Of a stretch of 64,000 nucleotides of DNA, positions 1-63,836 are shown one piece after another (the first letter of the stretch is position 1; each line of letters begins with the position of its first letter). A program made the position numbers and the translations under genes. This DNA is from Isoalcanivorax indicus. Its GTDB lineage: Bacteria > Pseudomonadota > Gammaproteobacteria > Pseudomonadales > Alcanivoracaceae. Under the pieces are notes generated by a model. It was not told the origin of the DNA. It ran no database searches and saw only the letters and a list, made by a program, of their open reading frames with translations. The DNA lies in contig NZ_QGMP01000001.1 in the NCBI RefSeq assembly GCF_003259185.1, positions 1,860,001-1,924,000 on the forward strand, in the 5' to 3' direction.

Positions 1-1629
<1,629 letters not shown>

Positions 1630-1662
1630 GTTATGCCCTTGATTCCGTGTTCATTCTGGAAA

Positions 1663-4749: not shown

Positions 4750-4771
4750 AAAAAAGCGGCCCGAGGGCCGC
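4750..4771 (-). terminator. Rho-independent terminator after sdhB
   Basis: On the minus strand GCGGCCC-TC-GGGCCGC forms a 7-bp GC stem directly followed by six T. It is 20 bases past the sdhB stop codon and separates sdhCDAB from sucAB-lpd. Confidence 0.85.
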
Positions 4772-4790
4772 TTGATTGTCAGACACCGGA

Positions 4791-5507: not shown

Positions 5508-5519
5508 TCCGGGCCTCCG

Positions 5520-7295
5520 TTAGTAAGTCCGAACCTTCGGCTGGAAGGTCTCGACAGTCTTGGGCGCAAAGTTCACGGCACGCTTGCCGAGCTGCTTGCC
5601 CGCAGGGTCATAGATGGAGTGGCACAGCCAGTTCTCATCGTCACGATCCGGGAAATCGTAACGTGAATGCGCGCCACGGCTCTCGGTACGCCCTTCTGCA
5701 GCAATGGCAGTCGCTTCAGCCACCTCAAGCAGGTTGTCCAGCTCCAGCGCTTCCACCCGGGCCGTGTTGAAGGCATTGCTCTTGTCCTCGAGGTGCGCAT
5801 TGGCAATGCGCTCCCGCAGGTCAGCAAGCTTCTTCACGCCTTCTGCCATCAGATCCCCTTTGCGGAACACACCGAAGTGGTTCTGCATGGTCTTCTGCAA
5901 CTCGGCGCGCAGGGCCATGACAGCCTCACCGCTGGTGCTTTCATTCCAGCGACGCTGGCGGGACAGGGCCGCATCGATATCGTCGGACGACGGCTCCGCC
6001 TGCTCCATGCCCTGGCGCAGCGCGTCTTCGATATACAGGCCCGCAGAGCGGCCGAATACCACCAGGTCGAGCAGCGAGTTGCCGCCCAGGCGGTTGGCGC
6101 CGTGTACGGACACACAGGCGACTTCACCCACGGCAAACAGGCCGTCAATGATCTGGTCGTCGCCCTGGCTGCCTTCCGACAGGCGGAGTGCCTGACCGTG
6201 GATGTTGGCCGGAATGCCACCCATCATGTAATGGCAGGTGGGCACCACCGGAATCGGCTCCTTCACCGGGTCGGCATGGGCAAAGGTCTTGGACAGCTCA
6301 CAGATCCCCGGCAAGCGGCTGTGCAGCACTTCTTCACCCAGGTGATCCAGCTTCAGGAACACGTGATCGCCATTCGGGCCACAACCGCGACCGTCCAGGA
6401 TCTCCATCATCATGGAGCGGGCCACCACGTCGCGGCCAGCAAGATCCTTGGCGTTGGGGGCGTAACGCTCCATGAAGCGCTCGCCGTCCTTGTTGACCAG
6501 GTAGCCCCCTTCACCACGGCACCCTTCGGTGACCAGGGTGCCTGCACCGGCGATGCCGGTCGGGTGGAACTGCCACATTTCCATGTCCTGGGCCGGTACG
6601 CCGGCACGCAGGGCCATCCCCATACCGTCGCCGGTGTTGATCAGGGCGTTGGTGGTCGAGGCATAGATACGCCCGGCACCGCCGGTGGCGAATACCGTTG
6701 CCTTCGACTTGAAGAACACCACTTCGCCGGTTTCGATGCACAGGGCAATGACGCCACACACCTGACCCTTCGCGTTCTTCACCAGATCGGTGGCCAGCCA
6801 CTCGCTGTAGAACTGGGTATTGTGCTTGACGTTCTGCTGATACAGGGTGTGCAGCAGCGCGTGACCGGTACGGTCTGCGGCGGCACAGGTACGGGCCGCC
6901 TGGCCACCCTCACCGTAATTCTTGGACTGACCCCCGAACGGGCGCTGGTAGATACGGCCTTCCTCGGTGCGCGAGAACGGCAGACCCATGTGCTCGAGTT
7001 CGAACACGGTTTCCGGACCCACGGAGCACATGTACTCGATGGCGTCCTGGTCACCGATATAGTCGGAGCCCTTGACGGTGTCATACATATGCCAGCGCCA
7101 GTCGTCATTCGGGTCGGAACTGGCAATGGCGCAGGTAATGCCGCCCTGGGCCGACACGGTATGCGAACGGGTCGGGAATACTTTGGAAATCAGGGCAGTC
7201 TTGAAACCCGACTGCGCCAGTTGCAGCGAGGCACGCATGCCCGCGCCGCCGCCGCCGACAATAACGGCATCAAAGGTAACGGTTCTGATCGACAT
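5520..7295 (-). CDS. sdhA: Succinate dehydrogenase flavoprotein subunit
   Basis: Oxidises succinate to fumarate at a covalently bound FAD. The 591-residue protein has the dinucleotide-binding motif GGGGAGM near the N-terminus, the flavinylation histidine in [11 protein letters not shown] (H45), and the conserved [14 protein letters not shown] segment of the catalytic and capping region. Length agrees with the E. coli enzyme (588). It starts three bases after the sdhD stop codon, so the subunits are translated from one tightly packed transcript. Confidence 0.98.
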
Positions 7296-7298
7296 GAT

Positions 7299-7670
7299 TT
7301 ACGCGCCTCCCCAGATCATCAGCAGGCCCCAGAGCACATAGACCAGGAGCACCAGTACTACCAGCGACTGCACCAGCAAACGCACACCGGTGGCCGCACC
7401 GCCAAGCTGGGTGCGGGTAAGATAGTCGGTGGTGACAATCCACAGACCGATCCAGGCGTGCGCGGCAATGGCCAGCACCACCAGGGTGTTGATGATCAGC
7501 ATCGGCGTGGACGTCATCAGCGCCTTCCACGCCTCGAACTCCAGACCGGGGTTGCAGACCAGATAGCCGATCAGGCCAATCGTGTAGAGTGCCAGCAGCA
7601 CCGCGCTCGCGCGCTGCACCAGCCAGTCGGACAGGCCGTTACGGCCAAAACTCGTGACGCTGGTTACCAT
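7299..7670 (-). CDS. sdhD: Succinate dehydrogenase membrane anchor subunit D
   Basis: Small membrane subunit (123 residues, three predicted membrane segments) that with SdhC binds heme b and ubiquinone. H71, D82 and Y83 fall at the same positions as the E. coli heme/quinone residues (AHAWIGLW...TTDYL). Its start overlaps the end of sdhC by seven bases, suggesting translational coupling. Confidence 0.95.
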   Translation of the reverse strand: MVTSVTSFGRNGLSDWLVQRASAVLLALYTIGLIGYLVCNPGLEFEAWKALMTSTPMLIINTLVVLAIAAHAWIGLWIVTTDYLTRTQLGGAATGVRLLVQSLVVLVLLVYVLWGLLMIWGGA

Positions 7671-8047
7671 ACCCAGACTCCCGCCAGCAGAATCAGTACT
7701 ACAGATACAGCGATAACCGTGAAAGCGCCGCGACGGCCGCCCTCCAGGGTTTCACCGATCCCCATGTCCATGATCAGGTGTTTGATACCTGCCGCCAGGT
7801 GATAGATGAGTGCGGCAAGAATGCCCCAGACCACCAGCTTGGCGAGCGGTGAGGCGAGCAGGTCCTTGAGTTCAGCAAAGCTTTCCGGAGACGCCAGAGA
7901 GCGATCCAGCATCCACAGCAGGATCGGCAATGCCACAAACAGGGCAATACCGGCAATACGGTGGGTAATGGAAGCCAGGGCGCTGACCGGGAACTTGATG
8001 GTGGTGAGATCCAGATTTACAGGTCGCTTGTCGTTCACGGTAGCCAT
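7664..8047 (-). CDS. sdhC: Succinate dehydrogenase cytochrome b556 subunit C
   Basis: First gene of sdhCDAB. The ATG at 8047 gives 127 residues, the usual length; the open frame runs further upstream but that extension does not look like SdhC. The sequence shows the family hallmark SALASITHRIAGIALF (quinone-site Ser/Arg), three membrane segments, and H83 in IYHLAAGIKH as the probable heme b ligand. It forms the membrane anchor with SdhD. Confidence 0.95.
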   Translation of the reverse strand: MATVNDKRPVNLDLTTIKFPVSALASITHRIAGIALFVALPILLWMLDRSLASPESFAELKDLLASPLAKLVVWGILAALIYHLAAGIKHLIMDMGIGETLEGGRRGAFTVIAVSVVLILLAGVWVW

Positions 8048-8193
8048 CACTATTAGCCGGGCCCCGGGGTCACCGGAGCAGTTGTCGGGAACGTCTGGAA
8101 CCCGGAAACCCCACTCGTGTCGTAATGGACAGCCGGGGATATCTCGAGCTCCCGCACACCGGCCGGGGAGGGTCCGGCGCGCAACGGGGCGGA

Positions 8194-8222
8194 AGTATAT
8201 CCCTGCCCCTGCCCGAAAACAA
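8194..8222 (-). promoter_or_regulatory. Candidate sdhCDAB promoter
   Basis: Minus strand TTGTTT, 17-base spacer, TATACT (-10 with 5 of 6 consensus bases). The start point would be near 8187, giving a leader of about 140 bases before sdhC. The weak -35 is compatible with activator control. Inference from spacing and hexamers only. Confidence 0.4.
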
Positions 8223-8441
8223 ACCACTTTATGCCGCCGGAATACGGCAACACACTGTTTTTCAAGGGCAAGCCGCCTGCTATCGCCTAAAGTATGAATT
8301 ACCTGTCGCCCTGATAGGCTTATCGTATCGCCGCACTTTCCTGTCGGGCTCATCCGGCGCGCGTCGTAACACCTTGTTTACCGGGCGGTTTGTGACTCGC
8401 CGGTTCCGGTGGTGGAAAGCACGGTAAACAGCGCAACTGCG

Positions 8442-8470
8442 TTGACAAAGGTGTATCAAAACCTTAACGT
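8442..8470 (+). promoter_or_regulatory. Candidate gltA promoter
   Basis: Consensus -35 TTGACA, 17-base spacer and a weak -10 TAACGT, about 90 bases upstream of gltA. A TATAGT hexamer near 8515 is an alternative -10 without a clear -35. Confidence 0.35.
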
Positions 8471-8558
8471 CCGTCGCGCCTGACGTGCAGCGCCGTATCG
8501 GACCGCGCCGTACAGCATATAGTGGGCTATCCAGAACGCCCCCGCGTAGGAGATTTCC

Positions 8559-9845
8559 ATGACCGAGAAGAAAGCCATCCTCAAGGTGGACGGCCGTGAG
8601 GATATCGAGCTGTCGGTATACTCCCCGTCTCTGGGCCAGGACGTTATCGACGTCGGCTCGCTGACCGCCAAGCAATTGTTCACCTTCGATCCGGGCTTTA
8701 CGTCCACCGCATCCTGCGAGTCCAAGATCACCTATATTGATGGTGAAGCGGGCAAGCTGCTGCATCGGGGTTACTCCATCGAGGAACTGGCCGGCCAGTC
8801 CGACTACCTCGAAGTCTGCTTCCTGCTGCTGCACGGTGAACTGCCGACTGCGGCACAGAAGGACGAATTTGTCAGCACCATCAAGAACCACACCATGGTG
8901 CATGAGCAACTGCAGTTCTTCTATCGCGGTTTCCGTCGTGACGCGCACCCCATGGCCGTCATGTGCGGTGTCGTCGGCGCCCTGTCCGCCTTCTATCACG
9001 ACTCCACCGACATCAAGAACCCCAAGCATCGCGAGATCACGGCCATGCGCCTGATTGCCAAGATGCCGACGATTGCCGCCATGTGCTACAAGTACGCGGT
9101 AGGCCAGCCGTTCATGTACCCGCGCAACGACCTGACCTACTCGGAAAACTTCCTGCACATGATGTTCGGCACGCCGTGCGAGGAATCGAAGATCAGCCCG
9201 ACCCTGGCCAAGGCCATGGACCGCATCTTCATCCTGCACGCCGACCACGAACAGAATGCCTCCACATCGACCGTTCGCCTGGCCGGTTCTTCCGGTGCCA
9301 ACCCGTTCGCCTGTATTGCTGCCGGCATCTCGGCCCTGTGGGGGCCGGCACACGGCGGCGCCAACGAAGCAGTGCTGAACATGCTGGACGAGATTGGCGA
9401 CGTGTCGAACATCGACACCTACATCGCCAAGGCGAAGGACAAGAGCGATCCGTTCAAGCTGATGGGCTTTGGTCACCGGGTCTACAAGAACTACGACCCG
9501 CGCGCCAACGTGATGCGCGAATCCTGCCACGAAGTGCTCAGCGAGCTGGGCATCCAGGATCCGCAGCTGGAACTGGCCATGAAGCTGGAAGAGATCGCCC
9601 TGAGCGACCCCTACTTCAAGGAGAAGAAGCTGTTCCCGAACGTGGATTTCTACTCGGGCATCATCCTCAAGGCGATGGGCATCCCGACCTCCATGTTCAC
9701 CGTGATCTTCGCCCTGTCCCGCACCGTGGGCTGGATCGCCCACTGGAACGAGATGATCTCCAACCCCTACAAGATCGGCCGCCCGCGCCAGCTCTACACC
9801 GGCGCCACGGAACGCTCTTTCGTACCGGCAGACCAGCGCAAGTAA
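8559..9845 (+). CDS. gltA: Citrate synthase (type II)
   Basis: Condenses oxaloacetate and acetyl-CoA to citrate, the entry step of the TCA cycle. The 428-residue product matches the NADH-sensitive hexameric type II enzyme of Gram-negative bacteria in length. Catalytic residues are in place: H265 (GPAHGGANE), H306 (GFGHRVYK) and D363 (NVDFYSG). A good ribosome binding site (TAGGAGA) precedes the ATG. It is divergent from sdhCDAB and followed by a strong terminator, so it is monocistronic. Confidence 0.98.
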
Positions 9846-10878: not shown

Positions 10879-11733
10879 TCAGGCGAACAGATGGCGGGCG
10901 TGGTAACGCAGGTGGTCTTCGATAAACGTGGCGATAAAAAAATAGCTGTGGTCATAACCCGGCTGCCGGCGTAGCGTCAGCGGGTGGTCATGCTCGGCGC
11001 ACACTGCCTCCAGCCGCTCTGGCAGCAACTGCTCGACAAGAAAGTTGTCCGCCTCACCCTGATCCACCAACAACGGCTGCCGAGAGTGGCCCGCCGCCAC
11101 CAGCGCGCAGGTGTCGTAGGCGCGCCATGCCGCTTCATCTTCGCCCAGGTAGCCCGCCAGCGCCTTGCGGCCCCAGGGGCAATCCACCGGATTCACGATC
11201 GGCGCAAACGCCGACACCGAGGCGTAGCGGCCCGGCTGGCGCAGGGCCAGCACCAGCGCCCCGTGACCGCCCATGGAATGCCCGCTGATCGCTTCGCGCT
11301 CGCTCACCGGACAATGCGCCCGCACCAGCGCCGGTAATTCTTCGGTGACGTAATCGTACATGCGGTAATGGCTCGACCAGGGCGCCTGCGTGGCGTTGAC
11401 GTAAAACCCGGCACCCGAACCAAAATCATAGCTGTCATGCTCGCCGGGCAAGTCCAGCCCGCGCGGGCTGGTGTCCGGGCATACGATGGCGATGCCCAGC
11501 TCGGCCGCTACCCGCTGGGCGCCCGCCTTCTGCATGAAATTTTCATCGTTGCAGGTCAGGCCGGACAACCACCAGAGCACGGGCACCTTGCCCTGCTCCG
11601 CCTGCGGCGGCAGATAGATGGCAAAAATCATGTCGCAATCCAGCACCGCCGAACGGTGCTGGTAGCGCTTGAGCCAGCCACCGAAACTGCGCGTTTCGGA
11701 CAACAGCACTGGCGCCTGTTTCTGCTGAGTCAT
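10879..11733 (-). CDS. fghA: S-formylglutathione hydrolase
   Basis: Serine hydrolase that splits S-formylglutathione into formate and glutathione, the second step of glutathione-dependent formaldehyde detoxification. The 284-residue esterase-D-type alpha/beta hydrolase has the nucleophile in GHSMGGHG (S153) and the typical [21 protein letters not shown] stretch near residues 54-74. A ribosome binding site AGGAG lies six bases before the ATG. It follows frmA by 17 bases on the same strand. Confidence 0.95.
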
Positions 11734-11750
11734 GGTGCGCTCCTGCTCGC

Positions 11751-12878
<1,128 letters not shown>

Positions 12879-12946: not shown

Positions 12947-13978
12947 TTACCCCTCGCGCTGCAACACCTGATGGGCCAGCGCGGCCAGCGGCGCAAACAG
13001 GGCGGCGCGTTCACGTGCACTCGACGACGCCGCCGTGCCGCGCAATACCCGCCCCTGAATACCATGGAGAATCGCCGCAAGGCGGAAGATATTGAACGCA
13101 ATATAGAACGGCCAGTGATCAATGCCACGGCGTCCCGTGCGCTGGCAATACGCCTGAATACAGGCCGTCTCGTCGGGAATGTTGAGGGCCTTGAGGTCCA
13201 GCCCGGCCAGCCCGTTCATGCCCTGGGCGGGCATGTGGTACATCATGGCGTGATAGGCAAAATCCGCCAGCGGATGACCGAGCGTCGACAGCTCCCAGTC
13301 CAGCACGGCCAGTACGCGCGGTTCGGTGGGGTGAAAGATCATGTTGTCGCAACGAAAATCACCATGGGCCACCACCGTCTCATCCCCCGGCGGAATCATC
13401 TCGGGCAGATCGCGCACCAGGGCATCCATATTCGGGTCGCGCCCGGCTTCGGGGTCACCCAGATACTGCTTTGACCAGAGCCCGATCTGCCGGGCAAAGA
13501 AGTTGCCGGGGCGGCCGTAATCCCCGAGCCCCGCCGCCTGCGGATCAATGCGGTGCAACTGCGCCAGCGTGGCGTTCATGGCGTCGAAGTAGTCGGCGCG
13601 CGCTGCCAACGGCACCTCCGGGAAGGTGGGGTCCCAGAAAATACGCCCCTCAACATGATCCATCACATAAAAGGCACTGCCGAGCACATCGGTGTCCTCG
13701 CACAGGGCGTGTACACGCGGCACCGGGAACCCCTGCCCGGCCAGTGCCTGCTGCACGCGCGCTTCGCGTTCGACGCTGTGCGCGCCCTTGAGGATCGGAC
13801 CATCAGGTTTGCGGCGCAGCACATAGGTGCCGGAGCCGGCATCGATGCGCCAGGAGGGAATCGACTGCCCGCCGGGAAAGCGGGTCAGCGTTATCGGGCC
13901 CTTGAAGCCATCAATATGCTGCGCCAGCCAGGTGTTCAGCGCGGCAGCCTCGAAAGGGAGCGTTTCAGCCTGTGCCAT
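12947..13978 (-). CDS. APH-family phosphotransferase (ACAD10/11 N-domain-like)
   Basis: Kinase-fold protein of 343 residues in the aminoglycoside-phosphotransferase superfamily. The Brenner motif HGDFRCDNMIF and the following metal-binding segment VLDWELSTLGHPLADFAY are intact. This subgroup resembles the kinase half of ACAD10/ACAD11 and is often near fatty-acyl metabolism genes; members of that group phosphorylate 4-hydroxyacyl-CoAs. That substrate is inference here, although lipid-related genes are common elsewhere in the window. An antibiotic-resistance role is unlikely. Confidence 0.75.
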   Translation of the reverse strand: MAQAETLPFEAAALNTWLAQHIDGFKGPITLTRFPGGQSIPSWRIDAGSGTYVLRRKPDGPILKGAHSVEREARVQQALAGQGFPVPRVHALCEDTDVLGSAFYVMDHVEGRIFWDPTFPEVPLAARADYFDAMNATLAQLHRIDPQAAGLGDYGRPGNFFARQIGLWSKQYLGDPEAGRDPNMDALVRDLPEMIPPGDETVVAHGDFRCDNMIFHPTEPRVLAVLDWELSTLGHPLADFAYHAMMYHMPAQGMNGLAGLDLKALNIPDETACIQAYCQRTGRRGIDHWPFYIAFNIFRLAAILHGIQGRVLRGTAASSSARERAALFAPLAALAHQVLQREG

Positions 13979-52703: not shown

Positions 52704-53388
52704 GACGTCTACTCCAATCCTTACTGCCGACCACCTCGGCAAACGGGTTCCGGGCCCGGAAGGCGAACTGACCCTGCTGGACCATATCGCATTACAGGTG
52801 CAACCCGGTGAAAGCGTGGCCATCACCGGCCCCAGTGGCAGTGGCAAGTCTACCTTGCTTGGCATTCTGGCGGGACTCGATCGTCCCAGCGACGGTGAAG
52901 TGCGCCTCGACGGCGAGCCTTTCAGTGCGCTGGATGAAGATCAGCGCGCCCTGCGCCGGGGCGCGCTGTGCGCCTTCGTATTCCAGTCGTTTCACCTGGT
53001 CAGCGATCTCAATGTACTGGAAAACGTCATGCTGCCGCTGGAAATCAAGGGCACCCGCCAGCCTGCGCAGGTAGCACGGCAATGGCTTGAGCGTGTCGGC
53101 CTGGGCCACAGGCTCCGGCATTTTCCCACCACGCTGTCTGGCGGTGAGCAACAGCGTGTGGCCCTGGCCCGCGCCTTCGCGGTCGCGCCCCGGCTGCTGT
53201 TTGCGGATGAACCCACCGGCAGTCTGGATCATGCCAACGGCCAGCGCGTCATCGAGCTGCTGTTCGACATGAACCGCGAAGCAGGCACCGCCCTGGTGCT
53301 GGTCACCCACGACGACCAGCTGGCCGCGCGCTGCCAGCGCCACCTGCGCCTGGAAGAAGGCCGCCTGCTGACCCCGGAGCCCGTCTGA
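52702..53388 (+). CDS. ybbA: ABC transporter ATP-binding protein (YbbA)
   Basis: ATPase of a LolD/MacB-type transporter, 228 residues, with Walker A GPSGSGKS (43-50), signature LSGGEQQR and Walker [13 protein letters not shown]. The start codon shares two bases with the divergent tesA start. Its stop overlaps the YbbP start (TGATG), so ATPase and permease are coupled. The tesA/ybbA/ybbP order is the same as in E. coli. The substrate is unknown. Confidence 0.95.
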
Positions 53389-55838
53389 TGCCTGCAGCCC
53401 TGACGCGTCCCTGGCGCGATCCGGCGTTTCGCATCCTGGCGCTGGCGCTGGCGATTGCCGCCCTGTCGCTGGCGTCCGTGGTGCTGCTGCGCGCCGAGCT
53501 GGAACAACGATTCGATGTGCGCACTGCCGAAGTGCTCGGTGGCGATCTGGTGCTGGCGGGCAGCTACCCCGCTGACGATGCCCAGCGCGCCCTGCTGGCC
53601 GCGTTGCGGCAGACCGAGATCGCCGATTTTCCCACCGTGCTGGTGCACGACGATGACATGCTGCTGGTGTCCGCCCGCGCCGCCGGTGACGACTATCCCC
53701 TCTATGGCCAGCTGGGTGTGGCCGACGACCGTTTCGCCGCCACCCACGGCATCGACCACGGTCCGGTTCCGGGTGAACTCTGGGTCGCCGATCAGGTGCT
53801 CGACCGCCTCGGCGTGGCGCTCGGCGATACCGTTACGGTGGGCCGCCAGCCCCTGACCGTCACACAGATCATCCGCCAGGAGCCGGATCAGGGCGCCGGT
53901 TTCTACAGCATGAACCCGCGCATCCTGTTCCACCGCGATGACCTGACCGCCACCGGCATTCTCGGCCCCGGCACCCGGGTCGATTACCGGCTCCTGCTGG
54001 CCGGTGACACCACTGAAGTGGCTCGCGCCGCACAGGCCTTGCCCGACACGCTGCGCGAGGATCAGCGCCTGGACACCGTGGCCGATGCCGCCACCCGCTC
54101 CATGGGCCCGATGCGGCAACTGACCCTGTGGGTCAGCCTGGGCGTGTTGCTGGTCAGCCTGCTGTGCGGCGCCGCCATCTATCTGGCCACCACGCAAAGG
54201 GTGCGGCGCCGGGCCCGCATGGCCGCCCTGCTGCGCAGCTTCGGCGCCCGCCGTCGCCAGGTGCTGACCCGTCTGCTCGGCGAAGAAGCCTGGGCGGTGG
54301 TGCCTGCCGTCCTGACAGGCACCTTGCTGGGCATCGCCCTGATGCTCGGCCTGCGCCGCGCCCTCGGTTGGGATGGCCCGCTGGCGGCCGGTGTCGCCGA
54401 CTGGCTGACCTTGCTGCTCGGGCCGATGGTGTTGTGGCTGGCGTTTGCCCTGCCCCGGCTGAGTGCGCTGGTGCGCACGCCCGCCATGCAGGTCCTGAAT
54501 GATCGCCTGGCGCCGCGCCAGCTTGCCGGCGTGATCGAACTGGCGGCGGCGCTGGGCGCGCCGGTGCTGCTCGCTGCCCTGCTGACCGGCTCCCTGGCCG
54601 AACTGGCGCAACTGCTGACGCTGCTGGTGGTGCTCGGCGCCCTGCTTCCCGCCCTGCTCTGGCCGCTGCTCAAATTGCTGGATATCGCCAGCGCCAGGCT
54701 GCCGCTGGCCGCCCGCCTGGCCGTGCGACGGCTGAGCCGCCGCCCGGGCCTGACCCTGCCCTTGCTGGCCTCGCTGACGGTGGCCCTCGCCGTGCTCGGC
54801 ATGGCCGGGCAGACCGGCAACCAGCTGCTCAGCGACTGGCGCCAGAAGCTGCCGGACGACGCCCCCAACCATTTTGTCTTCAACCTGTTCGACGATGATC
54901 TGCCCGCTTTTGCAGACTGGCTGCGCGAACACGAGGCACGCCCGCAACCGGCCTACCCGGTCGTGCGCGGCCGCCTGTCCGAGATCAACGGTGTGCCCGT
55001 GCGTGAGGCCGTGACCAAGGAAGACGATCAGACCGAACGCACCCTGAACCGCGACCTGATCCTGACCGAAGCCGACGCGCTGCCGCCCAGCAACCGTATC
55101 GCCGCCGGTCGCTGGCAGGCCGACGCCACCGGCGAGGTGTCGGTGGAACAGGAACTGGCCGAACGGCTCGGCCTGGGCCTGGACGATGTGGTGCAGTTCA
55201 CCACCAGCCAGGGCATCGTCAGCGCCCGCATCACCAGCATCCGCGAGGTCGACTGGGAGAGCTTCGAGCCGAACTTCTACTTCATGTTTGCCGGTGACGG
55301 GCTGGCCGGGCAGGACATCACCTGGCTGACCAGCTTCTGGCTGGCCGAGGGCGATGGTGCCCGGCTCGCCCGCCTGCTGCGCGCAATGCCGCATATCACC
55401 CTGCTGGATGTGAACGCATTGCTGGATCAGGCCCAGGACATCATTCGCCAGGCCAGCCGCGCCACCGGCCTGATGGCGCTGCTGCTGATGGCCGCCGCCA
55501 TGCTGGTACTGGGCGCCGCCTTGCTCGGCGCTCAGGCCCAGCGTGGCCGCGACAATGCACTGCTGCGCACTCTGGGCGGCAGCCGCGAACTGATTCGCCG
55601 GGTTACCGCACTGGAGTGTCTGGTGCTGGGCGGCGGCGCGGCGCTGGGCGCCACCCTGATCATGCTGGCCGCCCTGTATCCGCTGGGCCAACGGCTGTTC
55701 GATGGCGCCCTGCCCTGGTCGCTGTGGTTACTGCTGCCAGCCTTGCTCGGGCTGATCGTCGCCATGACCGGCATGGCCCTGGGACGCGGCGCCCTGCGCC
55801 AGCCGCCGCTGGCCCTGTTGCGGCAGGACGCCGGCTAG
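53388..55838 (+). CDS. ybbP: FtsX-like ABC transporter permease (YbbP)
   Basis: Inner-membrane permease of 816 residues, with one N-terminal membrane helix, a large periplasmic domain (about 40-240), a first FtsX domain with helices near 245-400, a second periplasmic domain (about 490-680), and a final FtsX domain. This matches the E. coli YbbP layout (804). It probably works with YbbA as a mechanotransmission-type ABC system, perhaps with periplasmic TesA. Function in lipid or lipoprotein handling is inference. Confidence 0.93.
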   Translation: MPAALTRPWRDPAFRILALALAIAALSLASVVLLRAELEQRFDVRTAEVLGGDLVLAGSYPADDAQRALLAALRQTEIADFPTVLVHDDDMLLVSARAAGDDYPLYGQLGVADDRFAATHGIDHGPVPGELWVADQVLDRLGVALGDTVTVGRQPLTVTQIIRQEPDQGAGFYSMNPRILFHRDDLTATGILGPGTRVDYRLLLAGDTTEVARAAQALPDTLREDQRLDTVADAATRSMGPMRQLTLWVSLGVLLVSLLCGAAIYLATTQRVRRRARMAALLRSFGARRRQVLTRLLGEEAWAVVPAVLTGTLLGIALMLGLRRALGWDGPLAAGVADWLTLLLGPMVLWLAFALPRLSALVRTPAMQVLNDRLAPRQLAGVIELAAALGAPVLLAALLTGSLAELAQLLTLLVVLGALLPALLWPLLKLLDIASARLPLAARLAVRRLSRRPGLTLPLLASLTVALAVLGMAGQTGNQLLSDWRQKLPDDAPNHFVFNLFDDDLPAFADWLREHEARPQPAYPVVRGRLSEINGVPVREAVTKEDDQTERTLNRDLILTEADALPPSNRIAAGRWQADATGEVSVEQELAERLGLGLDDVVQFTTSQGIVSARITSIREVDWESFEPNFYFMFAGDGLAGQDITWLTSFWLAEGDGARLARLLRAMPHITLLDVNALLDQAQDIIRQASRATGLMALLLMAAAMLVLGAALLGAQAQRGRDNALLRTLGGSRELIRRVTALECLVLGGGAALGATLIMLAALYPLGQRLFDGALPWSLWLLLPALLGLIVAMTGMALGRGALRQPPLALLRQDAG

Positions 55839-55936
55839 GATCGGCGGCGTGGCGCCGATTGACCCGCTCGGGCCTGCCGCACCGCCGGCAAATGGGTACC
55901 ATGGTGCATTATTGATAATGAAGATGGATCTGACCC

Positions 55937-57958
55937 ATGACCCGACGTCGTCGCCGCTGGCCCTGGTTACTGGCTGCCTTGGCCCTGCTGGCCGGGGCTG
56001 GCCTGTTGCACACCGCCTGGCCCTTTATCGCCTATCCGGTCACCCACCTGACGATCGACCGCCCGGCGCCGCAGCCCGCTGAAGCCATCCAGGTGCCCCT
56101 GGCAGGTGTGGCCGAAGTCGATATCACGCCGCCCATCGGCATCCCCAAGTTCGGCTATTCCGCCTGGGCTCGCCCCGCCGACGGCTTCCGCACCCGGCTG
56201 CGCGCCCGCGCCTTTTATCTGCATGCCCCGGACAGCACACCTCTGGCGCTGGTCACGCTGGACCTGGGGGCCGGGTCGCGCGTGCTGCACAGCCGCGTGG
56301 CCGAACTGATTGCCGCGCGCACCGATGTGCCCGCCCACGGCCTGAGCCTGCTGGCCACGCACACCCACTCCGGGCCGGGCCAGTACATGGATAACGATTT
56401 CTACAATGTGTTCGGCAGCGACAGCCCCGGCTTCGACCCGCAGCTGGCCGAATTTCTGAGCCTGCGGATTGCCGACGCCGTGGTCAGCGCCTTCAACGAA
56501 CGGCGCGCCGCCCGTGTCGCCACCGGCCAGCGCGAGGTGCGCGGCTTTACCCGCAACCGCTCGCTGGCGGCCTGGGCGCGCAATCCCGGCGCACCGCACG
56601 ACCCCGACGAGACCGACGCGCTGCGCGCCATCAACCCGCGCCTGACCATGCTGCGCATTGATCTGGAAGCCGACGATGGCCGCTACTATCCGGCCGGGGC
56701 CCTGACCGCCTTTTCCATCCACGGCACTGCGATTCCCGCCTTTACCCGCCCCTGGCATGCCGACGTCTGGGCCTGGCTGGGCCGTGATGTCGCGGTCGGC
56801 ATCGCCGCCGACCATGACACCCCCTTTGCGCCCGTGCACGGGGCCTACCAGGCCACCCACGGCGACAACAACCCGGCCTGGGTGCGCGGCCAACGGGGCG
56901 ACCGTGAGGCGCGCCGTATCGGTGAAGGCCTGGCGGGACAGGCCCTGCAACTGTTCAACCGCCTGGGTGAGCAGCTCGATGGTGAACTGCGCACCGCCGT
57001 CGCCAGCCGCGAACTGGATCTGCTCGCCTTGCCCGACGGGCAACGCCATGGCCTGTGCCCGCGTGCCATCGTGGGCGCGGCCACAGCCGGCGCTGCCGAG
57101 GGCGACGAGGTGTTCCCGATTTCCTGGCTGCCGTACCTGCAACATGGCTGGCCGCGCCGCGTCTTCACCGATGGATGTCAGGCTGAAAAACAATGGATGC
57201 TGTCGCACCTGCAACGCCTGCTGCCCGCCTCACGTTTCCCGCACCGGCCATTGTTGCAGGTGATCCAGGTGAACGATCTGGTGCTGGTCGCCCTGCCCTG
57301 GGAAGTCACGCTGGAAAGCGGCAACCGCCTGCGGGAAGCCGTTACCGCTGAATTGCCGCGGGGCAACTGGCTGGTGGAAATCAGCAGCGTGGCCAACGGC
57401 TATATCGGCTATGCCACCACAGCGGAAGAATACAGCCTGCAATATTACGAGGGCGGGCATACCCTCTACGGCCCCGGCACGCTCGCCTTTCTGACCGCCC
57501 AGAGCCAGCGGCTGACCCGTGATCTGGTCACCCACGGCGAGGTCGATGAGGCTGGCGGGCCCTGGCATTACCGACTACGCAGCCGTACATACTGGCCCGC
57601 TACCGACCTGCCCGTGGCCACCCGCCAGGCCGAGAGCACACCCGCCTTCATGCCGGCTGAAGGCCCGGACGAAGCCCACTGGCGCTTCCGCTTCAGCGGC
57701 GAGCATCCCGCCCACCTGGACCTGACCCAGCCATTGCTCAGCGTGGAAGCGGATCACGGCAACGGCTGGTATCCCCTGCTTCGCAACGAGGTGCCGGAAA
57801 ACGACCAGGGCAGCAATCTGCGCCTGCGCTGGCTGGGCGACACCGCCACCGGTGCCGACTATGCGGTGTACTGGTACAACCCGCCCGCGCCCGATCCGGC
57901 GGTCCGTTTCCGTGTGCGCATCGACGGCGACCCGGTGCTGTACTCGCCACCGTTTTAA
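55937..57958 (+). CDS. Neutral ceramidase-like protein with altered nucleophile motif
   Basis: Membrane-anchored protein of 673 residues, neutral/alkaline non-lysosomal ceramidase family. Arg-rich start and one membrane helix (about 9-30) suggest an uncleaved anchor with the domain in the periplasm. The zinc motif THTHSGPG is at 141-148 and the family's first strand DITPPIGIPKFGYS at 62-75. Where ceramidases have GDVSPN (nucleophilic Ser), this protein has HGDNNPAW, i.e. Asn replaces Ser. True ceramidase activity is therefore doubtful; another amide or ester substrate, or loss of activity, is possible. Weak ribosome binding site. Confidence 0.82.
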   Translation: MTRRRRRWPWLLAALALLAGAGLLHTAWPFIAYPVTHLTIDRPAPQPAEAIQVPLAGVAEVDITPPIGIPKFGYSAWARPADGFRTRLRARAFYLHAPDSTPLALVTLDLGAGSRVLHSRVAELIAARTDVPAHGLSLLATHTHSGPGQYMDNDFYNVFGSDSPGFDPQLAEFLSLRIADAVVSAFNERRAARVATGQREVRGFTRNRSLAAWARNPGAPHDPDETDALRAINPRLTMLRIDLEADDGRYYPAGALTAFSIHGTAIPAFTRPWHADVWAWLGRDVAVGIAADHDTPFAPVHGAYQATHGDNNPAWVRGQRGDREARRIGEGLAGQALQLFNRLGEQLDGELRTAVASRELDLLALPDGQRHGLCPRAIVGAATAGAAEGDEVFPISWLPYLQHGWPRRVFTDGCQAEKQWMLSHLQRLLPASRFPHRPLLQVIQVNDLVLVALPWEVTLESGNRLREAVTAELPRGNWLVEISSVANGYIGYATTAEEYSLQYYEGGHTLYGPGTLAFLTAQSQRLTRDLVTHGEVDEAGGPWHYRLRSRTYWPATDLPVATRQAESTPAFMPAEGPDEAHWRFRFSGEHPAHLDLTQPLLSVEADHGNGWYPLLRNEVPENDQGSNLRLRWLGDTATGADYAVYWYNPPAPDPAVRFRVRIDGDPVLYSPPF

Positions 57959-58032
57959 TCCAGGTTCCCCTCCGCATGGAGCATTCCCTGCTATGCTGGC
58001 AGCTACCGTGATTGTGGCTGCCGGAGTGCCTG

Positions 58033-58626
58033 ATGAAACGTCTCTCGAGAACGACCGCTTCGCTTTTGCCCATGATGCTGGCGATGCTGAGCGGTTGCGC
58101 CAGCACCAGCAGCGTGGAGGTGCACTACACCAGCGACACCCAGCACGGCACCCACCTGCTGCTGGCCGCGCGCACGCCGGAAGAACGCTATCGGGCCGAG
58201 TGGGAAAGTGCCTGCGCCCCGATTCTCGCCCGGGCCGGTTATCAGGTGACGCAAAGCCATCGGGTCATGCCCGGCTGGTATGAGCCGGGTAACACAGCCC
58301 TCAAGCAGCGTGCGCAGGACTTGCAGTTGCAGAACATTCTGGTGGCGGAACTCACCGCCTTGCTGGTAGCGCAATTCCCGGAAATGCATGAAACCCGCCT
58401 GAACCCGGAGGCCGGTTCCGGCATCGCCGGGGTGCATGAACAGATCACGCCGATCCGTGATTACCGCGCCATGCGCGATGTGCCCCCCAGCGACCAGAAT
58501 GTGGAAGCCACCCTGCTCACCACAGACGGACATCCACTGTGGCGTGGCGATATCACTACCCGTGAGGCCAACAGCATCAAGGCCATTGCCCGCAGCCAGT
58601 GCCGCGCCCTGGTCAAGGCGCTTTGA
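58033..58626 (+). CDS. Lipoprotein of unknown function
   Basis: Lipoprotein of 197 residues from the ATG at 58033 (GGAG at seven bases); the frame extends upstream but without a site. The signal ends in a canonical lipobox LSGC (C22). The mature part begins with Ser/Thr-rich residues and includes NVEATLLTTDGHPLWRGDITTREANSIKAIARSQ, reminiscent of lipoproteins that carry a domain like the Sbal_3080/DUF-type trypsin-resistant fold; I do not recognise the family firmly. It follows the ceramidase-like gene by 74 bases on the same strand. Confidence 0.7.
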   Translation: MKRLSRTTASLLPMMLAMLSGCASTSSVEVHYTSDTQHGTHLLLAARTPEERYRAEWESACAPILARAGYQVTQSHRVMPGWYEPGNTALKQRAQDLQLQNILVAELTALLVAQFPEMHETRLNPEAGSGIAGVHEQITPIRDYRAMRDVPPSDQNVEATLLTTDGHPLWRGDITTREANSIKAIARSQCRALVKAL

Positions 58627-58724
58627 GCAAGGTGCGTTGAGCACACGCTGAATTCCCGGTCATTGCGGGCACCGCGGCGGCTCGCCACAATCCCGGCGAA
58701 CCGATTTTTCGCAAGGAGCCCGCC

Positions 58725-59900
58725 ATGACAGGCACCCCCACATCCACGCCCACGCCCCGCAGCGGTCCGCTTTCCGGCCTGCGTATCATCGAGCTTTCCG
58801 GCATCGGCCCCGGGCCCTTCTGCGGCATGATGCTGGCCGACATGGGCGCCGAGGTGATTCGCGTGGACCGCCCGGGCGGCAACCCGGTGGCGGAAACCGG
58901 CCATCAGGTGCTGTTTCGCAATCGCCGCAGCATCAGCCTGAACCTCAAGCACCCGGACGGTGTGGCCGCCCTGCTGACGCTGTGCGAAAGCGCCGACGGC
59001 CTGTTCGAGGGCTACCGCCCCGGCGTGACCGAGCGCCTGGGTATCGGCCCGCAGGACTGCATGGCCCGCAACCCGAAACTGGTCTATGGCCGCATGACCG
59101 GCTGGGGCCAGGACGGCCCACTGGCCCAGGCTGCGGGCCACGACATCAACTACATTGCGCTCTCCGGTGCCCTGCATGCCATGGGGCGGCGCGGTGACAA
59201 GCCACTGCCGCCGCTGAATCTGGTGGGCGACTTTGGCGGCGGCGGCATGATGCTCGCCTTCGGCATGGTCTGCGCGCTGCTGGAAACCGGGCGCAGCGGC
59301 CAGGGACAGGTGATCGACGCCGCCATGACCGAAGGTGCCGCCGCCTTGATGGCGATGTTTTACGGCCTCAACGGCCAGGGCCAATTCAGCAACGGCCGGG
59401 GCGGCCATATGCTGGATACCGGCGCCCATTTCTACGAGGTCTACGAAACCGCCGACGGCGGCTACATTTCCGTCGGCAGCATCGAGCCGCAGTTCTACGC
59501 CCTGTTGAGCGAAAAAGCCGGGCTGGACAGCGACACCTTCGGCGTGCAGATGGACCCGGCCCGCTGGCCGTCGCAGAAGGCACAGCTCGCCGCCCTGTTC
59601 CGCCAGCGCAGCCGCGATGAATGGTGCGCCCTGATGGAAGGCACCGACATCTGCTTTGCCCCCGTACTGGATCTGAACGAAGCACCGCACCATCCGCATC
59701 ACCGCGCCCGGGGCAGCTTCGTCGAGGTCGCCGGTATCACCCAGCATGCCCCGACCCCGCGTTTTTCGCGTACCGCTGCCGCCACACCGGACGCCGCACG
59801 CCCCCCCGGCACGGACACCCGCGCCGTGCTGCGTGAGGCGGGCTTCGACGACACCCGCATCGAACACCTGCTGCAAAGCGGCGCCGCCACGCAACTCTGA
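58725..59900 (+). CDS. CaiB/BaiF family CoA enzyme, alpha-methylacyl-CoA racemase-like (second copy)
   Basis: Family III CoA-transferase/racemase of 391 residues. It has [37 protein letters not shown] at the N-terminus, [12 protein letters not shown] with the racemase histidine, and [16 protein letters not shown], all as in mycobacterial MCR and human AMACR. AMACR-type assignment is firmer than for the copy at 45432. AAGGAG precedes the ATG. It lies upstream of the AbfD-like gene on the same strand and may act with it on acyl-CoA substrates; the 188-base gap makes co-transcription uncertain. Confidence 0.87.
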
Positions 59901-60088
59901 GCATCGGGGGGGCGACGCCCGGCGTGGCCCTCCTGGCGCGGCCTTCTGACGCGCTTTCCTGACGTTAGTGTCCAGCCGAGCTGTACACCCCTGTCATTGC
60001 CTTTCGCGCGCGGCGCCCTACCATGGTATGACCCGAGAGTCACAAGCGAAGTCATAACCCGACATCAGCCCGCGCGCAGGAGAGAGCG

Positions 60089-61600
60089 ATGAACGCCGTG
60101 CCACCGATCAAGGACCGCAAACAGGAAAGCGCCGAGGAACGCTGGGCGCGCTTCCCCGTCATCACCACCGGCGAGGAATACCTGGCCAGCCTGCGCAATC
60201 GCGGTACCGACCTGTATCTGTTCGGCGAGCGCATTGAAGAACCGGCAGATCACCCGATCATCAAGCCGTCCATCAATGCCCTGCGCGCCAGCTACGATCT
60301 GGCCATCGAAGACCCGGATCTGGCCACCGCCTGGTCGCCGCTGATCGACGCCCGCGTGAACCGCTTCCTGCATATCGTGGAATCGCCCGACGACCTGGTG
60401 ATGAAAAACCGCATGCAGCGCCGCATGGGTCAGATCACCGGCACCTGCTTCCAGCGCTGCACCGGGCTGGACACCATTTCCGTACTGCATTCGATCACCT
60501 ACGAGATCGACGAAAAACACGGCACCGAGTACCACCAGCGTTACCTGCGCTTCCTGAAGGAAGCCCAGCGCAAGAACATCCTGATCGCCGCCGGCATGAC
60601 CGACCCGAAAGGCGATCGCTCCAAGCGCCCCCACGAGCAGGCCGACCCGGACATGTTCATGCACGTGTCCGGCCGCAATGACAAAGGCATCTTCGTACGC
60701 GGCGCCAAGGCACACATGACCGGCGGCTGGAACCAGCACTGGATCTGCGTGATGCCGACCATGAACCTCACCGAAGAAGACAAGAACTATGCCGTGGTCG
60801 GCATGATCCCCGGCGACGCCGAGGGCATCACCTATATCTATGGCCGCCAGTCCTGCGATACCCGCGCCATGGAAGAAGGCAATATCGACCAGGGCAACGC
60901 CGAATACGGCGGTCAGGAAGTGCTGGTGTATTTCGACGATGTGTTCATTCCCTGGGAACACGTGCTGATGGATGGCGAGTACGAATTCGCCCAGGACATG
61001 GTGGCGCGTTTTACCGCGTATCACCGCGCGTCTTACGTGTGCAAGACCGGCCTGGGTGATGTCCTGGTCGGCGCTGCGGCGTCCATCGCCGAGTACAATG
61101 GCCTCGACAAGGTCAGCCACATTCGCGACAAGCTGGTGGAAATGGTGCACCTCAACGAAACCATTTTCTCTTCCGGTATTGCCAGCTCCCACGAAGCAAA
61201 AAAACTGCCCAGCGGCATCTTCATGAACGACGCCATGCTGAGCAATGTGTGCAAGCACAATGTCACCCGCTTCCCCTATGAAATCTCCCGCCTGGCCCAG
61301 GATCTGGCCGGCGGCCTGATGGTCACCATGCCCAGCGAACAGGACATGAATTCCGAGGAAGTGGGCGGCATCATCAAGAAGTTTCTGAAAGGGCGTGACG
61401 ATATTGCCGTGGAAGACCGGGTGCGCATCCTGCGCCTGATCGAGAACATGACCCTGGGACGTAACGCCGTCGGCTACCTGACCGAATCCATGCACGGTGC
61501 CGGCAGCCCGCAGGCGCAGCGCATCCAGATCCTGCGCGGCATGAACGTCGAAGACAAGAAGTGGCATGCGCGCAAACTGGCCGGGGTGAAACAGGCCTGA
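60089..61600 (+). CDS. 4-hydroxybutyryl-CoA dehydratase/vinylacetyl-CoA isomerase-like protein (HpaB family)
   Basis: Flavoprotein of 503 residues in the HpaB/AbfD superfamily. Cys residues C120 and C124 (GTCFQRCTG) and H312 with C318 (YHRASYVCKTG) match in order the four [4Fe-4S] ligands of AbfD, with the His-to-Cys gap one residue shorter than I recall for the clostridial enzyme. The GGWNQHWICVMPT and WEHVLMDGEYEFAQDM stretches are shared with the family. AbfD dehydrates 4-hydroxybutyryl-CoA to crotonyl-CoA; simple HpaB oxygenases lack these cysteines. GCAGGAGAG precedes the ATG. Substrate is inference. Confidence 0.78.
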   Translation: MNAVPPIKDRKQESAEERWARFPVITTGEEYLASLRNRGTDLYLFGERIEEPADHPIIKPSINALRASYDLAIEDPDLATAWSPLIDARVNRFLHIVESPDDLVMKNRMQRRMGQITGTCFQRCTGLDTISVLHSITYEIDEKHGTEYHQRYLRFLKEAQRKNILIAAGMTDPKGDRSKRPHEQADPDMFMHVSGRNDKGIFVRGAKAHMTGGWNQHWICVMPTMNLTEEDKNYAVVGMIPGDAEGITYIYGRQSCDTRAMEEGNIDQGNAEYGGQEVLVYFDDVFIPWEHVLMDGEYEFAQDMVARFTAYHRASYVCKTGLGDVLVGAAASIAEYNGLDKVSHIRDKLVEMVHLNETIFSSGIASSHEAKKLPSGIFMNDAMLSNVCKHNVTRFPYEISRLAQDLAGGLMVTMPSEQDMNSEEVGGIIKKFLKGRDDIAVEDRVRILRLIENMTLGRNAVGYLTESMHGAGSPQAQRIQILRGMNVEDKKWHARKLAGVKQA

Positions 61601-61617
61601 CCTGAACAGGCCTGATT

Positions 61618-61672
61618 GACGGTACTGGCGCGGCGTTCTGATCCCGGATTATGATCAAAACGCCAGACCGTC
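61618..61672. repeat. Long imperfect inverted repeat
   Basis: Outer stem GACGGT(A)CTGGCG / CGCCAGACCGTC (61618-61630 and 61661-61672) and inner stem TTCTGATC / GATCAAAA (61636-61643 and 61653-61660). Located between the AbfD-like gene and the downstream lipoprotein. No T run follows, so it is not a standard terminator. Confidence 0.7.
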
Positions 61673-61739
61673 CCGGCGAACCTCAGCGCCCCCGGATGTG
61701 CGCGGCATTATCCTGAACGCCATATCCGGAGGGCTCTCC

Positions 61740-62105
61740 ATGCGCCTTGTCATATTGCTTGCCACACTGGCGCTCACCGCCTGTGCAACCCCCTTGCCCA
61801 ATACCTACGAAAACGTCGAGTTCTTTATCACCAGTCAGTCCCGCGAACCCGTGATGGTGGAATTCTATTCCCAGCATCGCAATGCCGCCTGGCCCGGCGG
61901 CGGCAAGGCCTATGTGGTGCGTGACTACGAAGAGCACCGCTTCGCCCTGCACTGCCGCAGCACCGAGCAAATCTGCTACGGCGCCTGGGTGGAACATCGC
62001 CCCAACGAATACTGGGGCGTCGGTATGGACGACGCCCATTGGTGTGACAAATGCTGCATGACCTGCAGTGAAGGCAACCGCGCTCGCTTTACCCTGCATG
62101 ACTGA
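61740..62105 (+). CDS. Small cysteine-rich lipoprotein
   Basis: Lipoprotein of 121 residues; the ATG at 61740 follows GGAGG. The lipobox LTAC gives C15. The mature part has a beta-rich look (ENVEFFITSQSREPVMVEFYSQH...) and six further cysteines, four in a tight group near the C-terminus (WCDKCCMTCSEG; C102, C105, C106, C109), plus C72 and C79. The cluster could form disulfides or bind a metal in the envelope. Family not recognised. Confidence 0.72.
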   Translation: MRLVILLATLALTACATPLPNTYENVEFFITSQSREPVMVEFYSQHRNAAWPGGGKAYVVRDYEEHRFALHCRSTEQICYGAWVEHRPNEYWGVGMDDAHWCDKCCMTCSEGNRARFTLHD

Positions 62106-62123
62106 CCGCGCCGAGGTCAGCCG

Positions 62124-63836
62124 TCAGTCACAGCCGGCCAACAGGCCATCGCAGGTCTGACGGCGACCCGCGCGATCCGTAAAGTCACGAGCGCTGGCGT
62201 GATAAAAACTCCAGCGCTCCGACCAGTCCTCATCGGCCAGCAGCCGGGCATCTGCATCATCAAAACCCGGCTCCCCCGGCTGCTTCAGATAGCGATCAAA
62301 CCAGGCCAGCGTATAGTGCTGCGCCATCGGCAAGCCCCACCCGCCCACGCAACGTCCCTGCTCGATGCGCGGGCACCAGGAGGTCGTGGGAAAGCTCGGC
62401 AACAAGGACCACTCGTAATGCGAACTGCCCCGAATGGTGAAGCCGAAGGCGGGCACCTCCGCCGCCTGCCAGGCATCGAACCAGCCCAGGCGCGCACGCG
62501 GCTCAGGTGGCGAGCTGAACGGCACTGGCGTCAGACCGTATTCGGAATCCTGGCTCATCATCGGCACCCGGGGCACAAACACCGGCCGCTCGACATCGCC
62601 CCCCAACAGACCGAAGACCAGGCTGAGCGGGCTGCCACCGCCGCCACCCTCGGCAGGCACGCTGGCCGGCGGCGTCGCCGCACCGTCCCAGGCCACGGCC
62701 ACTTTCACCGGGTTCTCCACGTCGAGCTGGCCGTCCCAGGGATCAGCACCGACCCCGCCCAGCCCCTGCACCACCGACACCCCGGTACCGCCCAGTGAAT
62801 GCCCGGCAATGCCCAGACGCTCGGCGTCGATATGATCGTGATAAGGGTTGAAGGCGGTCACCGGCGTAGGCCAGGTCCCCGCGCAGGTGTCGTTATGCGG
62901 ATACGGTTGCTCCGGCGCGGAGCGGAAGAAGTCGATGGCGTCCACCAGCCCTTCCCAGAACACCGCCGGATTGAAGTTGCTGCCCTGGACACCCTGCGGC
63001 GTGGTCAGATCAGAACGGCCCTGACCGCGCGGATCAAAGGTCAGCACCACATAGCCATTCTCCACCAGCATCTGCGCCGCCCACCAGTAGAGCGTCTCCG
63101 GTGCCTGCACCGAACCGTTCTGGATCACCACACCCGGCAGCGTGGCGCCCGCCGGGGTATTCAGCGGACGCCAGACCCGACCGGACAGCCGCGCACATTC
63201 CCGGTCGTAGAACACCACCGGCTCTACCGTGCCAACACTGCCGTAGAAGCTGTCCACACCCGGATAGCGGAACGGGTCCCCGGCGCACTGTGCTGCCCAA
63301 CTGGTGCACAGCGGCGTCACCGGCGTATTGCCGAGCAGGCCGATGGCCGCCATGGGGTCGTTCTGCAGGGCCTCGGCGGTGTCCGTCACCGTATCCTGCA
63401 CCAGCGTCAGCAGCGCCTGCGGGTCCGTCAGGTTATTGACGATCCCCCCCAGCAAGCCCGTGATGCCGCCCAGCAGCCAGGTGTTATCCGCCGCCGCGCG
63501 CTCGGTAAAGCTGGCCGCATTGGCCAGGCTCTGGCTGGTCCAGCGCAGCATAAAGGCCGGGCTGGTGACCTGCTCCACGGGTGCTTCCAGCACGCGTGCA
63601 TAATTCTCCGCCTCGCGGGCGTACCACTCGGGCGACGGGAAGGCCGGGCCCTGCGCCTGCGCCGCATCATCATCGGCTATCGGGTCATCATGTCCGGGCG
63701 CGTCTTGCTCCGGCGCATCGGTACGCGGGCCGCCGTCATCCGGGGCCGCAGACAGGTTGTCGCTGCTGCTGCCACCGCAGGCGGACAACAGAAACAGAGT
63801 GAGCGTGGCGACGCCCAGCGTGGACAGGTAGCGCAT
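62124..63836 (-). CDS. Large lipoprotein alpha/beta hydrolase
   Basis: Lipoprotein of 570 residues: lipobox LLSAC (C20), a Gly/Ser and Asp/Pro-rich linker (about 21-65), a helical domain (about 70-165), then an alpha/beta hydrolase domain with the strand LTFDPRGQGRSD, the nucleophile elbow GHSLGGTG and a late histidine region (SSHYEWSLLPSFP) that may complete the triad. Several cysteines probably form disulfides. Outer-membrane or secreted ester hydrolase; resembles polyester/lipase-like dienelactone hydrolase-fold proteins. Substrate unknown. Confidence 0.8.
   Translation of the reverse strand: MRYLSTLGVATLTLFLLSACGGSSSDNLSAAPDDGGPRTDAPEQDAPGHDDPIADDDAAQAQGPAFPSPEWYAREAENYARVLEAPVEQVTSPAFMLRWTSQSLANAASFTERAAADNTWLLGGITGLLGGIVNNLTDPQALLTLVQDTVTDTAEALQNDPMAAIGLLGNTPVTPLCTSWAAQCAGDPFRYPGVDSFYGSVGTVEPVVFYDRECARLSGRVWRPLNTPAGATLPGVVIQNGSVQAPETLYWWAAQMLVENGYVVLTFDPRGQGRSDLTTPQGVQGSNFNPAVFWEGLVDAIDFFRSAPEQPYPHNDTCAGTWPTPVTAFNPYHDHIDAERLGIAGHSLGGTGVSVVQGLGGVGADPWDGQLDVENPVKVAVAWDGAATPPASVPAEGGGGGSPLSLVFGLLGGDVERPVFVPRVPMMSQDSEYGLTPVPFSSPPEPRARLGWFDAWQAAEVPAFGFTIRGSSHYEWSLLPSFPTTSWCPRIEQGRCVGGWGLPMAQHYTLAWFDRYLKQPGEPGFDDADARLLADEDWSERWSFYHASARDFTDRAGRRQTCDGLLAGCD

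Follow-up and report, generated by a model that had tools for sequence, protein, structure and literature searches.

The window, a 64,000-nucleotide stretch of Isoalcanivorax indicus DNA, encodes at 60089..61600 (+ strand) a 503-aa AbfD-type [4Fe-4S]/FAD protein of the 4-hydroxyacyl-CoA dehydratase/vinylacetyl-CoA delta-isomerase family, in which the cluster ligands and catalytic residues are intact and whose gene (abfD) is linked to one for an alpha-methylacyl-CoA racemase (AMACR). Sequence, tree and fold place the protein within the AbfD family and exclude an HpaB oxygenase. By family it is an ordinary member; by branch it is an unusual one. We put at roughly 50% the probability that it is an oxygen-tolerant radical enzyme which, together with the AMACR encoded beside it, serves the aerobic breakdown of acyl-CoAs; in this reading its activity, its tolerance of oxygen and its substrate are all predicted.

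Gene identification and family assignment

The source genome (3.44 Mb, completeness rated 100%) is close to Alcanivorax, a genus of oil degraders. The reading frame of abfD starts with ATG, preceded by a ribosome-binding-like AGGAG (60078..60082, +; read by eye), and a promoter scan of 58600-62200 found no promoter. Two named records, one of them from A. limicola, are 98% identical to the encoded protein. The best PDB sequence matches were, in order, 6vjr (E 1.1e-219), 1u8v (E 5.4e-164) and then HpaB (7.4e-35), with identities of 64.6% to 6vjr (477 columns), 53.5% to 1u8v and about 25% to HpaB 2yyg.

The Pfam pair HpaB_N/HpaB covers the protein from end to end, and these domain names would suit an HpaB-type aromatic hydroxylase that depends on reduced flavin and has retained its cysteines by chance. 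We rejected this identity as extremely improbable: the NCBIfam HpaB-1 score (159.5) does not come near the cut-off of 480.2, the tree sets the protein apart from HpaB, the set of ligands and catalytic residues that is invariant in AbfD-type rows is absent from HpaB, and the position of HpaB H142, which we take to be the substrate-binding histidine, is occupied by alanine (A168).

Cluster ligands, catalytic residues and predicted fold

Four residues align with the cluster ligands of AbfD (alignment; codon coordinates by arithmetic, all on the + strand): C120 with C99 (60446..60448), C124 with C103 (60458..60460), H312 with H292 (61022..61024) and C318 with C299 (61040..61042). The ligand order is thus as originally predicted, and all four are invariant in 96 of 96 AbfD-type rows, a set that counts the query along with L001 (its own copy) and near-duplicates drawn from two collections, and that leaves L090 (21 aa as extracted) outside the alignment; in HpaB 2yyg the ligands are absent. 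The alignment also pairs E277, Y316, K319 and E466 with AbfD E257, Y296, K300 and E455, presumably the catalytic residues. E466 is kept in 95 of the 96 rows, the exception being the truncated L055.

The spacing between H312 and C318 is, as had been noticed, one residue shorter than in the clostridial enzyme (HRASY-VCK vs HRQSYGGCK). It is no oddity: the short form is the majority form, found in 87 of 96 rows and in 6vjr among them, and the long one is confined to nine rows (1u8v, five Clostridia, two Bacteroidetes and one Dehalococcoidales). The short spacing, which occurs in archaeal and in other bacterial rows, is a possible correlate of oxygen tolerance.

An AlphaFold2 model of the protein, built on a 46-sequence alignment and without cofactor, reached a mean pLDDT of 88.4; the ten-residue blocks containing cluster-site residues and E466 scored lower (121-130, 71; 311-320, 80; 461-470, 54). 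Foldseek placed 6vjr first (TM 0.93, rmsd 1.6) and 1u8v, the Clostridium aminobutyricum enzyme with which a structural comparison had been proposed, second (TM 0.92, rmsd 1.8), followed by HpaB entries; the superposition was judged on the overall fold and the ligands on the alignment, and it is at these two levels that the second outcome named as refuting, ligands away from the cluster site, was examined. The original prediction of an AbfD-like Fe-S flavoprotein is therefore borne out by the retained ligands and catalytic residues, the identity to 6vjr, the fold and the position within the AbfD clade described below.

Cysteines of the cluster have been lost in two groups of relatives. Five gammaproteobacterial proteins (L103-L107; 32-35% identity) keep the first cysteine and the histidine and have Tyr/Ala in place of two ligand cysteines; they apparently form a cluster-less branch that, judged by sequence, is the nearest to AbfD among those sampled. 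The Rhodococcus plasmid type (L126-L129; 27-29% identity) has no cluster cysteines at the ligand positions. Since cysteine loss does happen in the superfamily, full retention of the ligands in the 503-aa protein is informative.

Phylogeny and distribution

A quick maximum-likelihood tree of 98 rows was computed with SH-aLRT support, without bootstrap, and rooted on one HpaB. These rows were drawn from a set of 115, which excludes rows shorter than 400 aa (L055, L090, L117 and L121) and L001-L014, by removing 13 near-identical Alcanivorax-type rows and L113, L116, L122 and L129. The protein lies inside the AbfD clade (78 rows, SH-aLRT 99), so a place among the HpaB oxygenases, which had been named as one refuting outcome, did not arise; long-branch warnings mostly concerned rows outside this clade. 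Within it, the protein belongs to a 31-row bacterial clade (SH-aLRT 100) comprising Alcanivorax, Alloalcanivorax, sphingomonads, Panacagrimonas, Caenimonas, Alcaligenaceae, Thermoleophilia, Saprospiraceae and some unplaced MAGs, lineages that we take to be mostly aerobic. Its neighbours are Nitrososphaeria (with 6vjr) and a group of Myxococcota, Chloroflexota and others, with the clostridial AbfDs outside. L042, a record titled as a Bifidobacterium breve MAG, groups with Thermoleophilia, and its title is probably wrong.

The gene is present in 4 of 7 genomes of the genus. In an even sample of the class, matches occurred in 23 of 369 genomes, the source genome included, and besides this genome only 8 of the 369 carried cluster-bearing AbfDs (60-64% identity); the protein is therefore uncommon in the class. 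A cluster-bearing AbfD with 63% identity (L125:11965-13521) was also seen on a Bradyrhizobium elkanii plasmid typed as conjugative, surrounded by xanthine-dehydrogenase-like and lactonase genes.

AbfD is an oxygen-sensitive radical enzyme, and its family is best known from anaerobes, so that an aerobic host had seemed surprising. This surprise is weakened by the nearest solved homologue, 6vjr, which bears the PDB title 'Oxygen tolerant Archeal 4hydroxybutyrylCoA dehydratase (4HBD) from N. maritimus', comes from what we take to be an aerobic archaeon and has the same short His-Cys spacing; because of this title and this spacing, an AbfD with short spacing in an aerobe is no paradox, even though one review places the 3HP/4HB pathway with the oxygen-sensitive ones (PMC12246640).

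Linkage of abfD to an AMACR gene

The AMACR-like gene that had been reported upstream of abfD is present at 58725..59900 (+), 188 bp from it, and encodes a 391-aa protein of the AMACR/MCR type. Its best matches are solved racemases (M. tuberculosis MCR 1x74, E 4.1e-115, 357 residues) and it keeps the motifs GHDINY and GDFGGG, presumably the His/Asp motifs of racemases; motifs and matches together identify it as a predicted alpha-methylacyl-CoA racemase. The genome has only three CoA_transf_3 genes. Further upstream, at 55937-58626, lie genes for a protein resembling neutral ceramidase and for a 204-aa protein that gave no Pfam match, and the same gene order before AMACR is seen in many Alcanivorax loci.

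The link between the two genes is recurrent in the clade, and stronger than the original prediction could know. Among 80 named loci, with flanks of up to 8 kb and often shorter, the AMACR cluster was found in the flanks of abfD in 17 of 23 Alcanivoracaceae-type loci and in none of 37 AbfD loci outside the clade; of the 20 remaining clade loci, six had it (L035, L036, L039, L047, L048 and L050). None of the eight sphingomonad loci had a linked AMACR. A CoA transferase following abfD on a Sphingomonas plasmid (L124) was left uncounted, being 28% identical and without racemase motif. Genes clustering with msrA/msrB (methionine sulfoxide reductases; identity established in L019, 6501-7696) lie upstream of abfD in 15 Alcanivorax-type loci, in 13 of which msrA-msrB stands between AMACR and abfD.

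Co-occurrence was counted within the family Alcanivoracaceae. Of 24 genomes, 12 had both genes, one abfD only (G022), one the AMACR orthologue only (G002) and ten neither, with orthologues called at 69% identity, a threshold set after the values had been seen. The orthologue was thus present in 12 of 13 genomes with abfD and in 1 of 11 without it (Fisher p 6e-5, shared ancestry ignored), or, counting genomes at least 90% complete, in 11 of 12 and 1 of 8, respectively. The two genes lie within 2 kb of each other in 10 of the 12 genomes having both; G010 and G016 keep both as well, on separate contigs.

A genome-wide AMACR search covered the genomes of 18 of 20 clade loci from beyond Alcanivoracaceae and of 18 of 37 loci outside the clade. 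In the six non-Alcanivoracaceae genomes with linkage, the linked AMACR was the top-scoring AMACR match of the genome (positions matched by hand), being the sole match at E <=1e-60 in two and leading narrowly in G407 and G409. No AMACR above 50% identity was found in 3 of the 18 clade genomes examined, and the two Saprospiraceae copies had in-frame stops. AMACR is, moreover, a common gene: outside the clade, 6 of 18 AbfD genomes, all six from Myxococcota, had an AMACR above 50% identity, none of them in the flanks of abfD. These results count against a partnership of the two genes, as do the unlinked sphingomonad loci and L124, the two family genomes with one gene only and the intervening msrA-msrB.

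In an AMACR tree, from which 11 near-identical rows had been removed, 13 of the 14 rows labelled as linked formed one 17-row clade (SH-aLRT 89) together with four rows from family genomes; one row, L149, is labelled 'free' though it adjoins abfD in G017. The branching of this clade resembles that of AbfD, and only G002 within it lacks abfD; the linked row outside it is the Rhodococcus one. Pairwise AbfD and AMACR distances were correlated over 16 pairs (r 0.83, with 0 of 2000 permutations as high), which shared ancestry can partly explain.

Gene neighbourhoods and other genes of the window

In L050, abfD and AMACR stand in a run with genes for an acyl-CoA ligase, two acyl-CoA dehydrogenases, a thiolase, a 2-oxoacid dehydrogenase, an enoyl-CoA hydratase and a 3-hydroxyacyl-CoA dehydrogenase. 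In L036 and L039, abfD is followed by a ligase with an AMP-binding_C_2 domain, and in most sphingomonad loci an AraC-type regulator gene is close to abfD, often divergent, with alpha/beta hydrolase genes downstream in several. These settings would fit organic-acid catabolism better than CO2 fixation. Genes of the CofC-like and CofH-like type (F420 biosynthesis) and a luciferase-like monooxygenase gene were noted near abfD of Caenimonas (L036:196-17470); members of the CofC-like and CofH-like clusters also occur in Panacagrimonas (L035).

The acyl-CoA degradation set of L050 would also fit a protein that is mainly a delta-3/delta-2 enoyl-CoA isomerase of branched or unsaturated acyl-CoAs, with the dehydratase half-reaction unused. 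The PDB names the 6vjr protein vinylacetyl-CoA delta-isomerase, and AbfD has both dehydratase and isomerase activity. Such a restricted role is nevertheless improbable, given that the full set of dehydratase residues is conserved, all cluster ligands included, and that ordinary crotonase-fold isomerases could presumably serve more cheaply.

The cluster-less relative of Rhodococcus opacus PD630, a single gene present in two records (L126:3995-6536 and L129:9995-12536), is directly followed by an AMACR-like gene and then by genes for an acyl-CoA ligase and a carboxylase. This AMACR-like protein is 52.5% identical to that of the window and is annotated as an alpha-methylacyl-CoA racemase in one record and as a CaiB/BaiF CoA-transferase in the other. 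Cluster-less relatives occur at three distinct loci on Rhodococcus plasmids, and only the R. opacus one has a racemase-like neighbour (none in L127 and L128).

Two genomic arguments of the original prediction stood in part. The complete oxidative TCA cycle ascribed to the window holds for the genes identified by Pfam, namely sucB, sucA, sdhB and sdhA (-) and gltA (+) at 352-9845. The supposed ACAD10-like kinase exists as an APH-family gene (12947-13978, -); its tie to ACAD10 fell away, the matches being generic APH ones below the NCBIfam cut-offs, and at about 46 kb from abfD, with no connection seen, it was rejected as a partner. An esterase gene (PF00756) and a zinc alcohol dehydrogenase gene lie side by side at 10879-12860 (-), resembling what we take to be a gene pair for the glutathione-dependent detoxification of formaldehyde.

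Clade-specific changes near the active site

In the clade (44 rows), nineteen positions, 17 of which belong to the core, carry nearly fixed letters that occur in less than 5% of the 47 other AbfD rows. The pair G147-A148 of AbfD, kept in 47 of 47 other rows, is replaced in the clade by A168-G169 (codons 60590..60595, +; sequence comparison), of which A168 is the residue aligned with HpaB H142. AbfD Q189, kept in all other rows except one of the clostridial group, is replaced by M210 (codon 60716..60718, +), which adjoins T211 (AbfD T190). Further clade letters are G213 for Cys or Ser 192 and A314, two residues past the ligand histidine. Five of the 17 core positions are no more than two residues away from one of 12 functional sites (p 0.013 against all core positions and 0.0009 against variable columns), the list of sites being partly drawn from background knowledge and chosen post hoc, after the changes were known. 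This shift looks as a change of substrate would and suggests one, falling short of proof.

The changes also appear to argue against assuming plain 4-hydroxybutyryl-CoA as the substrate. According to that simpler view, the protein would be a plain oxygen-tolerant 4-hydroxybutyryl-CoA dehydratase, forming crotonyl-CoA from 4-hydroxybutyrate (4HB) derived from gamma-butyrolactone, 4HB-containing polyesters or succinate semialdehyde, and the AMACR would belong to another branch of lipid degradation. The retained AbfD catalytic set and the 64.6% identity to the closest solved relative, the N. maritimus 4HBD, speak for it. We consider it rather unlikely, as G147, A148 and Q189, (nearly) fixed in the 47 other rows, are changed across the clade, and as it leaves the repeated AMACR linkage across phyla unexplained. 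Moreover, the seven genes examined at 53388-63836 include none that resembles a 4HB entry gene. The genome itself has one Fe-ADH match above the cut-off and one below; its sole PF13336 match, a protein of 717 aa, is atypical and scores below every NCBIfam cut-off.

Proposed function and significance

The most likely function is that of a dehydratase/isomerase of the oxygen-tolerant radical type for 4-hydroxy- or 3-enoyl-CoAs, probably alpha-branched. The mechanism of AbfD is a radical dehydration through one-electron chemistry of the flavin. Here, the flavin would take one electron from the deprotonated acyl-CoA, enabling loss of the beta-hydrogen, after which the group at the gamma carbon would leave and a 4-hydroxyacyl-CoA would become a 2-enoyl-CoA; acting as an isomerase, the enzyme would convert a 3-enoyl-CoA into a 2-enoyl-CoA. 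In either case, the product could be finished by ordinary beta-oxidation. The use of 4-hydroxyacyl-CoAs at which the original prediction hinted is plausible for the putative dehydratase. An alpha-methyl-branched substrate is our leading guess, and with it the role of AMACR would be to present the epimer whose alpha-hydrogen an AbfD-type enzyme can remove.

More tentatively, and with odds of being right that we rate as somewhat poor, several phyla of aerobic bacteria may share an undescribed two-gene module, made up of a racemase and an oxygen-tolerant Fe-S radical dehydratase whose AbfD active site has been reshaped (G147A, A148G, Q189M) to accept 4-hydroxy- or 3-enoyl-CoAs with an alpha-methyl branch. 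If so, it would open a radical route, working in air, for branched acids whose breakdown is otherwise blocked, e.g., those from isoprenoid hydrocarbons.

If the proposed function is correct, the radical chemistry of AbfD would have a place in catabolism under air, apart from CO2 fixation by archaea, and the clade would supply oxygen-tolerant candidates for engineered pathways that need an AbfD step. In the literature, the 3HP/4HB pathway, which uses an AbfD-type enzyme, is counted among the oxygen-sensitive ones (PMC12246640), the reaction is described as a mechanistically difficult radical one (PMC7078158) in which the FAD-dependent enzyme eliminates water from C4 of 4-hydroxybutyryl-CoA (PMC8364193), and the gene is used as a marker of archaeal carbon fixation (PMC8670421). 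An AbfD match in a bacterial metagenome would, by itself, be no marker of the 3HP/4HB cycle.

Comparison with known systems

Our literature search, with many subscription papers outside its scope, found no paper joining 4-hydroxybutyryl-CoA dehydratase with alpha-methylacyl-CoA racemase, with Sphingopyxis, or with 'oxygen sensitive' and 'aerobic bacteria', and none joining Alcanivorax with either vinylacetyl-CoA delta-isomerase or alpha-methylacyl-CoA racemase; two papers mention Alcanivorax as well as 4-hydroxybutyryl-CoA dehydratase.

Among characterized systems, the 503-aa protein shares with N. maritimus 6vjr the ligands, the short His-Cys spacing and the fold; it differs in its bacterial host, in its AMACR neighbour and at A168-G169, M210, G213 and A314, where 6vjr has G-A, Q, C and R, respectively. 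With C. aminobutyricum AbfD (1u8v) it has in common the four ligands, the catalytic residues and the fold, whereas the clostridial enzyme has a His-Cys spacing longer by one residue and lies outside the archaeal and bacterial short-spacing clade. FADH2-dependent hydroxylases of the HpaB/TftD type have the same fold and Pfam domains, but HpaB is about 25% identical (2yyg), has no cluster ligands and falls outside the AbfD clade. The AMACR of the window has the racemase motifs in common with M. tuberculosis MCR (1x74) and, unlike it, adjoins an AbfD gene; in the AMACR tree it groups with most of the other copies that are linked.
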